Assembly: GCA_001769835.1 (NCBI GenBank)
Contig: MEPR01000076.1
Coordinates: forward strand, 666-36,718
DNA: 36,053 bases
Source of the DNA: Bdellovibrionales bacterium GWB1_55_8
GTDB lineage: Bacteria > Bdellovibrionota > UBA1018
Direction: 5' to 3'
Made by a program: the position numbers and the translations under genes. How positions within the stretch are numbered: position 1 is the stretch's first letter; each line of letters opens with the position of its first letter. Shown here one piece after another: positions 23,259-25,899 of this stretch. The notes under the pieces are model-generated. The model worked only from the letters and a program-made list of their open reading frames with translations, searched no databases and was not told the origin of the DNA.

Positions 23259-24746
23259 ATGTCAAGAACCAGGAAGGTCCTACTCCTTGTTTCGGCGTTG
23301 CTTGCGGCGAATCTGGCTAACGCTGATTACAGGTCGGGCGAAGTAATTGTAAAGTACCGTGAAGGCGCTCTTCGGACGCGTACCACGATGAACGCGATTT
23401 ATGACAATGTGGGCGCCCGGAAAATCCGACGCTACGCAGGCCTGATGAAAGGCTTTGAGCACATCACTTTGCGTGATGGCATCAAGGTTCAGGATGCCAT
23501 TGCTGAATTGCAACGCAGCGGCATCGTCGAGTATGCGCAGCCGAACTATATGTTGTATGCGCTTCCGGTGATGAATCCCAGCGAAGGTGGCATCCCTTGC
23601 ATTCCGGGTTTTGAAATCCCCGGCTGCGAACCCGCTGATGGCGGCGGTGGTGGTGGCGGCGGGGAAGTTCCCTGCCTGATCCCCGGTCTTCCCTTTCCTC
23701 CAGGCTGTAAAGATGAAGGCGGCGGCGGCGGCAGTCCGTGGCCTCCCGGCGACCCTGGCGACGGAGATGGCGGCGGAACGCCCCCTCCTGGAAATCGCCC
23801 TGAGCTGAAACCAGCTCCTGCTGAAGTGAATCCTCCAGTTGCGGACCCGCAGCTTTCCAAGGCCTACGGTATCGAGAAAGTCGGCGCCATCGAAGCCTGG
23901 AAAAACTGGAAAGGTAGTAAGGATATGGTCGTTGCCGTGATCGACACGGGTGTCGATTACAATCACGAAGACCTCTCCTTTAATATGTGGCGCAACCCGA
24001 AACCGGGCGCGAAGAATGACGTAGTCGGCTACGACTTCGTTCATAACGACGGACTGCCTTATGACGACAACGAACATGGCACGCATTGCGCCGGTTCGAT
24101 TGGCGGCGTGGGTGGAAACGGTATCGGTGTTTCCGGCGTTTCGCAGCGTGTTTCAATTATGGCGCTTAAGTTCCTGTCCGGTCAGGGCAGCGGAACCTCT
24201 GCTGACGCTATCCGTGCCATCGACTATGCAATTGCCAACGGTGCCAAGGTGCTGAGCAATAGCTGGGGTGGTAAAGGTGACGACGAGAACAAGGCTCTGT
24301 ACGACTCGATCGAACGCGCCAAAAATGCCAACGTGCTCTTTATTGCGGCCGCCGGAAACGACGGTGCCGATAATGATAAGCCCGATCCTTCCTATCCGGC
24401 AGCTTTCGACAATGACAACCTCATTGCCGTCGCTGCTACCGACAAGAACGATAAAATGGCGTTCTTCTCGAACTACGGGAAGAAGACGACTCACGTAGCT
24501 GCGCCTGGCGCCAGTGTGTACAGTACTGTTCCTGGGAACAAGTACTCCTCGCTTTCTGGAACGTCGATGGCGTGTCCGCATGTTGCGGGTGCCGCCGCCC
24601 TTCTGTGGTCCAAGAATCCGACATGGAGCTACAAGAAGGTGAAGCAGGTCCTGATGAATACGGTTGATCAACTTCCATCGCTGGCCGGTAAAACGGTCAC
24701 TGGTGGCAGAATCAACGTGAATAAGGCACTGCAAACGACGGATTGA
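23259..24746 (+). CDS. Secreted subtilisin-like (S8) serine protease
   Basis: The 495-residue preproenzyme has a signal peptide (about 1-22, ending NLANA) and an inhibitor-I9-like propeptide (about 24-102, with GEVIVKYREGALRT and YAQPNYMLYA). A low-complexity Cys/Pro/Gly linker (103-200) and the S8 catalytic domain follow. The triad is D229 (VVAVIDTGVDYNHED), H273 (EHGTHCAGSIGG) and S436 (SGTSMACPHVAGAA); N367 (AAAGNDG) is the oxyanion residue. C277 and C439 lie next to the catalytic His and Ser motifs, as in proteinase K-like enzymes. The protein is complete and should be active outside the cytoplasm. AGGGGGGAA precedes the ATG. The gene stands alone between two strong terminators, so it is probably transcribed on its own. 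Confidence 0.95.
   Translation: MSRTRKVLLLVSALLAANLANADYRSGEVIVKYREGALRTRTTMNAIYDNVGARKIRRYAGLMKGFEHITLRDGIKVQDAIAELQRSGIVEYAQPNYMLYALPVMNPSEGGIPCIPGFEIPGCEPADGGGGGGGGEVPCLIPGLPFPPGCKDEGGGGGSPWPPGDPGDGDGGGTPPPGNRPELKPAPAEVNPPVADPQLSKAYGIEKVGAIEAWKNWKGSKDMVVAVIDTGVDYNHEDLSFNMWRNPKPGAKNDVVGYDFVHNDGLPYDDNEHGTHCAGSIGGVGGNGIGVSGVSQRVSIMALKFLSGQGSGTSADAIRAIDYAIANGAKVLSNSWGGKGDDENKALYDSIERAKNANVLFIAAAGNDGADNDKPDPSYPAAFDNDNLIAVAATDKNDKMAFFSNYGKKTTHVAAPGASVYSTVPGNKYSSLSGTSMACPHVAGAAALLWSKNPTWSYKKVKQVLMNTVDQLPSLAGKTVTGGRINVNKALQTTD
23595..23729 (+). repeat. Duplicated Cys-Pro-Gly linker module in the subtilase
   Basis: Residues 113-157 contain two similar modules: PCIPGFEIPGC (C114-C123) followed by EPAD and eight glycines, and PCLIPGLPFPPGC (C139-C150) followed by KDE and five glycines. 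A cysteine-free Pro/Gly/Asp stretch comes next. Each cysteine pair could form a small disulfide loop between propeptide and enzyme. Confidence 0.7.
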
Positions 24747-24794
24747 GTCGGTACGGGTGATTCACCCGTATCGGGCCAAGGATTCGGCTGAGCG

Positions 24795-24827
24795 ATGGGG
24801 GTTCCGAAAGGAACCCCCATTTTTTTT
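24795..24827 (+). terminator. Rho-independent terminator after the subtilase gene
   Basis: A perfect 11-bp stem (ATGGGGGTTCC, 24795-24805; GGAACCCCCAT, 24810-24820) with a GAAA tetraloop is followed by seven to eight T residues. It lies 48 nt past the stop codon. Confidence 0.95.
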
Positions 24828-24863
24828 GAGACGGTAACTCTGCCAGCATCGCTCTGACAAATT

Positions 24864-24903
24864 CAGGCGGAACGAGGCGATCCCTCAAACCTCGTTCCGC
24901 CTG
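24864..24903. repeat. 14-bp perfect inverted repeat
   Basis: CAGGCGGAACGAGG (24864-24877) and its exact reverse complement (24890-24903) surround a 12-nt loop. There is no T run on either side, only AATTT on the minus strand, so it is at best a weak terminator for the dksA-like gene that ends at 25031. Confidence 0.6.
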
Positions 24904-24982
24904 TGTGCACTCGTTGGCAACCCGTTTAGGTCTGTTCCATGGATTGCGGATCAAGCGCATTCTGTCGCTTCCTTGCGGACCT

Positions 24983-25004
24983 CGTCTCGCTTCCTTGCGA
25001 GACG
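24983..25004. repeat. Inverted repeat, with a second copy of its core
   Basis: CGTCTCGC (24983-24990) and GCGAGACG (24997-25004) flank TTCCTT. The inner dodecamer CGCTTCCTTGCG occurs once more just upstream (24966-24977), so two hairpins with the same loop stand in tandem 27 nt before the end of the dksA-like gene (minus strand). Confidence 0.5.
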
Positions 25005-25030
25005 GTTTCCCTCTCCCCCCCCACTAAAAA

Positions 25031-25435
25031 TCAGGCGAGACGGATTCGTGTGCCCAGACTCTTCGGCTTCCTGCCATCGATATGGGCGTGCTCACTGCGC
25101 TCCTGGCCTTCCTTGCAGGAAACGCACAGTGTGGCGGTTGGGCGGGCCTCCAGGCGGCGCAGATCGATGTCGTCGCCGCAGTCATCGCAGGTGCCGAAGG
25201 ACCCTTCCCGGATTTTGTCCAGAGCCTGATCAATTTTTTTCAGAAACAAGGCCTCTCGATTGCGAAGCCGCATTTTCATGGATGTCTCAAGTTCGCTCGA
25301 CGTGACATCCATTTCATCTGCAAGGTCCTCTTCCTGGAGGCGGAAGTCCTCGCTTGCAAGCTTCCTTGTGCACAAAAGGGCGCGTTTCTGTTCTTCGAAG
25401 AGAGTTTTAAATTTGAAGGTAGTTTCCGAGTTCAT
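25031..25435 (-). CDS. DksA/TraR-family zinc-finger protein, paralogue 1
   Basis: DksA/TraR proteins enter the RNA polymerase secondary channel and modulate initiation, often with ppGpp. The 134-residue product has a helical hairpin (about 5-75) and a C4 zinc finger with C83, C86, C104 and C107 (CDDCG ... CVSC). At the coiled-coil tip the DksA motif DxxDxA reads D40-E-M-D43-V-T45, so both acidic residues are kept but the alanine is replaced by threonine. It shares a nearly identical segment RRLEARPTATLCVSCKE and exact zinc spacing with the paralogue at 26029-26439. AGGTG lies 5 nt before the ATG. A 5' leader hairpin precedes it. It lies outside the dnaX operon, after a terminator. Confidence 0.9.
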   Translation of the reverse strand: MNSETTFKFKTLFEEQKRALLCTRKLASEDFRLQEEDLADEMDVTSSELETSMKMRLRNREALFLKKIDQALDKIREGSFGTCDDCGDDIDLRRLEARPTATLCVSCKEGQERSEHAHIDGRKPKSLGTRIRLA

Positions 25436-25459
25436 GATACACCTCGCCTTTTCCTGGCG

Positions 25460-25482
25460 CGAACCGGATTCCTTCCGATTCG
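25460..25482 (-). promoter_or_regulatory. Hairpin in the leader of the dksA-like gene
   Basis: On the minus strand CGAATCGGA pairs with TCCGGTTCG (one T-G wobble) around an AGGAA loop, about 25 nt before the start codon. It could influence translation of the dksA-like mRNA; no known riboswitch is recognised. Confidence 0.35.
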
Positions 25483-25635
25483 AGCCTCACCTGGACAGAT
25501 GTCTGCCGTGACGATCCTTAGCTGCATTTGATGAAGTCATTCCTAAACTTCCAGATAGCCATCCTGGCCATTCAGATGCTGCTTTGTCCAAAATCAGTTT
25601 TGATTCTTTAAGTCGATTCGTTCAGCGAACGAGAT

Positions 25636-25743
25636 CTATTGGTAGAAGAAGTAGCGCCTGCGGTACTGACCCAAGCGCGAATAGAATAGGCTAGAGGTGG
25701 AGATTCGTGCTTGAAAGCCAGCTGTGGATTTAGATTGTTTCAT
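25636..25743 (-). CDS. Unlisted 35-residue small protein
   Basis: The minus strand reads AAGGAGG, 6 nt, then ATG (25743), an ideal ribosome binding site. The 35-codon frame begins MKQSKSTAGFQARISTSS and ends RLGQYRRRYFFYQ before TAG at 25636-25638. The peptide is basic, has no membrane segment or signal, and ends in an Arg/aromatic cluster, which would suit binding to RNA, ribosome or an acidic partner. It is preceded by a leader hairpin and followed by TCGTTC/GAACGA (25618-25632). It lies between two dksA-like paralogues, about 200 nt upstream of paralogue 1. I do not recognise a family; the ribosome binding site is the main evidence. Confidence 0.5.
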   Translation of the reverse strand: MKQSKSTAGFQARISTSSLFYSRLGQYRRRYFFYQ

Positions 25744-25779
25744 GACCGGCCTCCTTGATCTGGCGGTGGGGTTATTTCC

Positions 25780-25810
25780 CCCTCGCTCATGACTACCTGT
25801 AGTGCGAGGG
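25780..25810 (-). promoter_or_regulatory. Leader stem-loop upstream of the 35-residue ORF
   Basis: CCCTCGC (25780-25786) pairs with GCGAGGG (25804-25810), and inside it ACTA pairs with TAGT, with a 5-nt bulge. On the minus strand this lies about 37-67 nt upstream of the ATG. A TATAGT box at about 25830-25835 (minus) could be a -10 element, but no good -35 was found. Confidence 0.4.
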
Positions 25811-25875
25811 ACGTGCCACGGGGAAAAAGACTATACTTTCGCGATTTAGATGCCGATTCGGTGCAAATCTGACCA

Positions 25876-25899
25876 AAAACATCCCTGAAATAAAGGGAT
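25876..25899 (-). terminator. Second small terminator candidate, minus strand
   Basis: ATCCCT/AGGGAT with a 7-nt loop is followed by GTTTTT on the minus strand. It sits about 70 nt beyond the main terminator of the dksA-like paralogue 2 and could act as a back-up stop. Confidence 0.4.

Follow-up and report, generated by a model that had tools for sequence, protein, structure and literature searches.

Gene organization of the locus

The window, i.e. the whole 36,053-nucleotide stretch of DNA from Bdellovibrionales bacterium GWB1_55_8 that was analysed (genome G000), carries on its minus strand, in this order, dnaX, recR, the gene of a GTPase that we take to be MglA-like (its Pfam matches are to Arf/Ras), dksA1, a small ORF and dksA2. 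A subtilase gene (23259-24746, plus strand) is convergent with dksA2. The subtilase gene of G006, a genome of the same family, is likewise convergent, and subtilase-like sequence occurs near three other loci (L017, L024 and L026).

The small ORF (25636..25743, minus strand) starts with ATG and encodes 35 amino acids (MKQSKSTAGFQARISTSSLFYSRLGQYRRRYFFYQ). Its Shine-Dalgarno sequence, AAGGAGG (25750..25756, minus strand), is separated from the start codon by six nucleotides (CCGGTC) and is kept in G006. The peptide has a net charge of +7 and ends in RRRYFFYQ. An earlier note had described an unlisted ORF of 35 residues on the minus strand, its consensus ribosome site and this C-terminus, and the sequence confirmed all three; its placement between two dksA-like genes was also correct, as each of the two flanking gene products has a DksA zinc finger and a DksA_N domain. 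The TCGTTC/GAACGA inverted repeat that the same note reported does sit right after the stop codon, but no counterpart was seen past the ORF stop of the nearest homologue, in G006. When the window leader was shuffled 300 times, 11 of the shuffles yielded an ORF as long as this one behind a comparable ribosome site. By itself, the ORF of the window is thus only mildly unusual, and its weight lies in its recurrence in related genomes. The peptide had no match among known small-protein families in Pfam, NCBIfam and PHROGs.

The gene downstream, dksA2 (25031..25435, minus strand), encodes a DksA-like protein of 134 amino acids with a C4 zinc finger (PF01258) and the DksA N-terminal domain (PF21157), both above cut-off; the NCBIfam dksA model scored 100.9, below its cut-off of 115.5. 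The coiled-coil tip of Escherichia coli DksA contains the residues D71, D74 and A76 (PMC5886539). In the tip of the window DksA2 (DEMDVT), both Asp are kept and the residue corresponding to A76 is replaced by Thr.

Promoter box and leader

A sigma54-like promoter box, TGGCACGTCCCTCGCA (-24/-12; TGGCAC-N5-TCGCA), lies upstream of the small ORF (25803..25818, minus strand) and is kept in 32 aligned dksA2 leaders, 22 from loci of the family and 10 from loci of the order families f3, f4 and f5. The sequence TGGCAYNNNNNTCGCAHW has a single match in the window's genome. After a first pass, the search pattern was relaxed to allow T[ACG]GCA and TGGC[AC]. Over the 32 boxes TGG, C4, T12 and GCA are invariant and the spacing is constant, where TGGC, T12, GCA and the spacing were required by the search pattern; the GG and GC dinucleotides at -24 and -12 have this fixed spacing in 32 of 32. 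Similarity to dksA2 was the criterion for picking the loci, and these counts come from the very loci on which the box was discovered. The consensus -12 element of sigma54 promoters is TTGC, unlike the TCGC found in 30 of 32 boxes (C at position 13). C9, C11, T18 and A19 are conserved as well. The box of G016 lies farther upstream and reads TCGCT, and in G009 a box is near a second dksA gene. RpoN is encoded in 31 of the 35 family genomes, with one copy in the window's genome, and TTGC-type sites gave 80 matches against 16 for a reversed control in the 35 genomes. Most of the box matches listed elsewhere lie away from dksA2; 30 sites were fetched and read by eye, and no such layout was seen at those among them that are away from dksA-like genes.

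By the usual sigma54 geometry, transcription would presumably start 12 nt after the -12 GC, at about 25792 (minus strand). The earlier note had read a CCCTCGC/GCGAGGG repeat as a leader stem. The repeat exists; its left arm, however, coincides with the -12 part of the conserved box. The box (25818..25803) ends 11 nt before the expected start, and the CCCTCGC arm should therefore not be part of an RNA stem. A terminator-like hairpin, ATCCC/GGGAT followed by GTTTTTGG (25881-25899, minus strand), parts dksA1 from the promoter.

RNAfold predicted a 5′ leader hairpin with an inner GGGG/CCCC stem at 25759..25792 (minus strand), where most relatives also have small hairpins. Another predicted hairpin, GGAGGCCGGU/GCUGGCUUUC (25713..25754, minus strand), covers the ribosome site and start codon of the small ORF. 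The pairing probability of the Shine-Dalgarno sequence was 0.72 in the window and 0.80 in G006; it ranged from 0.11 to 0.91 over 16 loci, so that an occluding hairpin is not a general switch. No terminator-like site was found from 25636 to 25436 on the minus strand, the interval from the small ORF to dksA2. The trio of promoter, small ORF and dksA recurs as one unit, and the small gene is not isolated as had been supposed.

In a FastTree phylogeny (midpoint root, no support values printed), the DksA proteins encoded behind the box clustered apart from dksA1, and the short second dksA of G009 fell on their side. The dksA1 types retain the tip D-x-x-D-x-A, including the A. The box-bearing paralogues keep both tip Asp, and 29 of 32 have T, S or C in place of A76 (counted by eye).

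Recurrence of the small ORF in relatives

The earlier note had proposed a search of relatives with the 35-residue sequence. A direct protein search against the 35 family genomes returned only the query itself and chance-level hits, but a DNA search of 58 genomes, among which there was no closer species of the window's own genus, gave one match besides the window's own genome, in G006 (86% identity over 48 nt, spanning the ribosome site, the start codon and the first codons). The G006 ORF encodes 45 amino acids (MKNQSPKAGFQAKELDARFANPFAYFFIIRSSLVADGFFPFPQRF) and likewise lies ahead of a dksA gene. Because the protein search missed this homologue, the ORFs were compared by position. For this, 30 dksA loci were fetched for the 35 family genomes and the stretch from the promoter box to dksA2 was read; seven of the 30 are of the dksA1 type (L036, L038-L041, L043 and L044) and served as controls or were left out.

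Under a strict rule (ATG start, 35-75 aa, a ribosome-site match of at least 5 nt), 13 of the 17 loci having a box by the first pattern hold an ORF at the corresponding place. At each of the 13, at most 11 of 300 shuffles equalled the real ORF; the shuffle fractions summed over loci to 0.35, which is a sum of tail fractions and not an expected count of ORFs longer than 30 aa. Four loci failed the rule: the ORFs of G018, G024 and G008 have weaker ribosome sites or overlap dksA2, and G007 lacks one. Further such ORFs were found in G005, G016 and the f3 genome G036 (locus label SJ854). The ORF is absent where the leader is short (G007, G011, G019, G029, G033, f4 and f5), the leaders of f4 and f5 being roughly 50-120 nt and lacking a ribosome-site-preceded ORF of this kind. 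The dksA2 unit therefore does not seem to need the ORF. The f4 and f5 loci suggest that a core of promoter, CsrA sites and dksA2 is independent of the ORF, which would have been gained in, or lost from, some families.

Composition and evolution of the peptides

The 19 peptides (1059 residues) are rich in aromatic residues. F, W and Y make up 17.7% in frame and 0-13% in the two other frames, and 187 were observed against 71 expected from dinucleotide shuffles of the 19 ORFs. The aromatics are more frequent in the second half than in the first in 16 of 19 peptides, and 17 of 19 are net positive, the remaining two being net negative. The Arg/aromatic C-terminus pointed out in the note is thus a real trend that the peptides share; its target may be nucleic acid, the ribosome or the membrane, as the note suggested.

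The prevailing aromatic (W, Y or F) shifts between genera. Several peptides favour one residue (G001, W10/Y0/F0; G005, W11/Y0/F1; G003, F11; G030, Y11), that of the window mixes Y and F, and those of G025 and G008 have few aromatics. A core FWSVFGP is common to G015, G028 and G032, with a near copy in G020. No motif of a leader-peptide end was seen by eye. The codon-level check proposed earlier gave dN/dS below 1 in three pairs within genus g16 (0.40/0.85, 0.52/0.86 and 0.46/0.75); three more distant pairs were also below 1, with poor alignments. The peptides change fast, and what is retained is the composition, the charge trend and the start.

In four small ORFs from two genera (L027, L033, L034 and L037), about 20 nt coding for WSVFGP hardly differ, even at third positions, a hint of constraint on this stretch at the RNA level. 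Two other roles for the ORFs were considered and set aside. As judged by eye, only some peptides are membrane-like (G003) and others are Trp-rich or Tyr/Arg-rich, so that a type I toxin does not hold as a general reading; and the 19 ORFs contain 41 GGA against 37.5 expected, so that GGA decoys within the ORF were rejected.

The start site and frame are conserved in G006, a co-located ORF exists in most family loci and dN/dS is below 1. Therefore, the overlooked 35-residue gene is probably real, in line with the earlier view of it as a small gene easily missed by annotation.

GGA-loop hairpins on both sides of dksA2

A GGA in a hairpin loop is the known signature of CsrA binding. In the minus-strand stretch from the small ORF to dksA2, a hairpin scan found AUGGCCA[GGA]UGGCUAU (25555..25571), GAAGUU[UAGGAAU]GACUUC (25533..25551) and CGAAUCGGA[AGGAA]UCCGGUUCG (25460..25482), and CGCC[AGGAAAA]GGCG, with a 4-bp stem, lies just before the dksA2 start (25445..25459). 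Downstream of dksA2 on the same strand, the scan found CGUCUCGC[AAGGAA]GCGAGACG (24983..25004); a weak hairpin with a 3-bp stem, CGC[AAGGAA]GCG (24964..24980), and a long 3′ hairpin, AGGCGGAACGAGG/CCUCGUUCCGCCU, with GGGA in its loop (24865..24902, -26.9 kcal/mol) follow. No U-run stands behind the long hairpin, so it is not a standard terminator. Five GGA hairpins of the strict kind lie in 24700-25850. The window alone is not exceptional, its best 600-nt count of GGA hairpins here being 3 against 4 elsewhere.

Over 22 family loci, the region upstream of dksA2 (220 nt) has 23 GGA-loop hairpins against 4.35 in 60 shuffles (sd 2.1) and the downstream region (260 nt) has 37 against 7.6 (sd 2.5), whereas the coding part has 11 against 9.0. 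Among loop triplets, GGA ranks first in both flanks; in the coding part it does not. The reverse strand yielded 6, 3 and 3 such hairpins in the upstream, downstream and coding regions. This set includes L028 (G016), the locus with the box farther upstream. Five loci of f5 have a GGA loop in 17 of their 32 downstream hairpins, against 1.1 in shuffles, and in 4 of 16 upstream, against 0.9 (25 shuffles). The neighbouring dksA1 genes were not enriched (4 against 2.8 and 2 against 2.4). Seven loci labelled dksA1-only gave 4 against 1.8 and 4 against 1.3; this set includes L042 (G011), which was counted among the boxes and kept outside the 22-locus test, and which the tree places with dksA2, while L040 was left out. 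Other loci without a box gave 1 against 2.9 and 7 against 4.0, and order-level loci without a box match served as controls only.

CsrA is encoded in 33 of the 35 family genomes. In the window's genome, csrA adjoins fliW (L165, 386-2267) after a flagellar gene that we assigned by eye as flgL-like. Rfam models gave only sub-threshold matches in the window region (CsrB, 14.7 against a gathering score of 71; PrrB_RsmZ, 14.2 against 44), and a known RNA family, including the CsrB/RsmZ small RNAs, was rejected on this ground.

Other structures were noted after dksA2. Three g16 loci (L027, L033 and L034) share a near-identical long 3′ hairpin about 620-640 nt after the dksA2 start, with the loop AAGGGACG and the stem CCGAACGU...ACGUUCGG, and the G006 locus (L003, about 2242-2330) has two copies of a GC-rich direct repeat, GCTTGTGACAGCGAGGCCGGCGGGCCGAGCGTTGTCAT.

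A putative sigma54-type, CsrA-bound dksA2 message

The features brought out by comparison are the promoter box, the recurrence of an ORF behind a ribosome site, peptides rich in aromatics and the excess of GGA-loop hairpins. These would fit a single transcription unit consisting of a sigma54-like promoter, a 5′ hairpin, the small ORF, GGA-loop hairpins, dksA2 and more GGA-loop hairpins. Sigma54 promoters need an ATP-dependent activator. RpoN and such an activator would turn the unit on during starvation or a lifestyle change. CsrA would bind the GGA hairpins, keep dksA2 translation down and itself be titrated, and DksA2 would thereafter retune RNA polymerase. Ribosomes on the small ORF may govern the folding of the long leader and its exposure to CsrA, with the aromatic and basic nascent peptide slowing them. 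That the small ORF is the translated first gene of such a message, with a leader role in cis, is a proposition on which we are evenly divided; this role is the one that we prefer, and a free microprotein is its close rival.

Such a microprotein would act in trans on a target that could be RNA, the ribosome, CsrA, RNA polymerase or the membrane and, being made together with DksA2 from a CsrA-binding message, would act within the same switch. The prevailing positive charge, the aromatics far above those of other frames, the dN/dS below 1 in g16 and the FWSVFGP core agree with it; the lack of a match in Pfam, NCBIfam or PHROGs, the slight sharing of sequence, the genus-dependent aromatic and the two net negative peptides do not, and we consider it possible but lean against it. 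The ORF might instead serve as a codon-based attenuator, in which a ribosome stalls for want of charged tRNA at runs of codons for one aromatic residue and the downstream RNA is switched toward dksA2 expression. DksA fits a response to amino-acid starvation, and the one-residue bias of G001, G005, G003 and G030 is as this mechanism would have it. However, the residue differs by genus, the peptide of the window has both Y and F, aromatics are few in G025 and G008 and, in the window, the minus strand holds no terminator-like site from the ORF to dksA2; an attenuator is unlikely. It is very improbable that the ORF is incidental, i.e. that the stretch is an RNA element or a spacer with a ribosome site and a frame by chance: despite slight conservation at the protein level and the nearly unchanged WSVFGP codons, whose third positions could reflect constraint on RNA, the ORF recurs with ribosome sites more often than in shuffles, its aromatics are enriched in frame and dN is below dS in six of six pairs.

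The promoter box could also belong to a different conserved regulator whose site looks like that of sigma54. The C at position 13 in 30 of 32 boxes and the conservation outside the usual box (C9, C11, T18 and A19) would suit such a regulator, but the exact GG/GC geometry, the presence of RpoN and the placement of the box at leader starts make this doubtful.

Relation to known systems and significance

In amino-acid leaders such as trpL and pheL, a short ORF precedes the regulated gene, often with an abundance of one aromatic residue. The dksA2 leader differs in that no terminator was found from the ORF to dksA2 in the window, the residue type is variable and many of the ORFs are longer than usual leader peptides. 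The arrays of GGA-loop hairpins are shared with CsrB and RsmZ; these RNAs, however, are non-coding, and their Rfam models score far below gathering in the window region. The flaA mRNA of Campylobacter jejuni is a CsrA target that titrates CsrA, alongside FliW (PMC4894983), and the dksA2 mRNA may by analogy titrate CsrA as well. Both mRNAs code for a protein, have GGA hairpin loops in the leader and come from a genome that encodes CsrA and FliW. In contrast, flaA encodes flagellin and has two GGA hexaloops in its leader, while dksA2 has arrays on both gene flanks, a sigma54-like promoter and an extra small ORF, with CsrA binding here being predicted. In E. coli, CsrA represses dksA, and ppGpp and DksA raise CsrB/C (PMC7652899). 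That circuit also links CsrA to dksA, but its sponge RNAs are separate genes, whereas here the GGA arrays flank a dksA paralogue.

For Bdellovibrionota, we found neither the small ORF nor CsrA sites on a dksA leader reported in open-licence literature. Nor did we find a description of the combination of features, of their placement on the two flanks of a dksA paralogue or of the microprotein. The text of a Bdellovibrio bacteriovorus RNA-seq paper has no mention of dksA or csrA (PMC3627812). In the same species, the dksA gene Bd3519 drops sharply on leaving attack phase (PMC2797640). Therefore, a dksA2-type unit may bear on lifestyle switches of the predator type.

The named records of one scan are Oligoflexia, Bdellovibrionales, Bacteriovoracaceae and other MAGs, and the claim is kept to Bdellovibrionota, where the layout appears to be common to related, mostly unstudied bacteria. 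We tentatively propose, with less than even confidence, that the order has a dual-function dksA2 mRNA that is switched by sigma54 and serves as a CsrA sponge, and that some families acquired a gene for a hypervariable, aromatic microprotein that tunes the switch or takes part in it. Outside Gammaproteobacteria, the means by which CsrA is kept in check are, to our knowledge, largely open, with FliW as the best-known answer. A dksA-paralogue message with CsrA-type arrays in several families suggests an RNA-based restraint of CsrA and names a transcript of interest. The small ORFs form a family in which composition persists while sequence is lost, and similarity-based annotation misses such genes. 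An RNA of this kind would couple the Csr and stringent-response systems.
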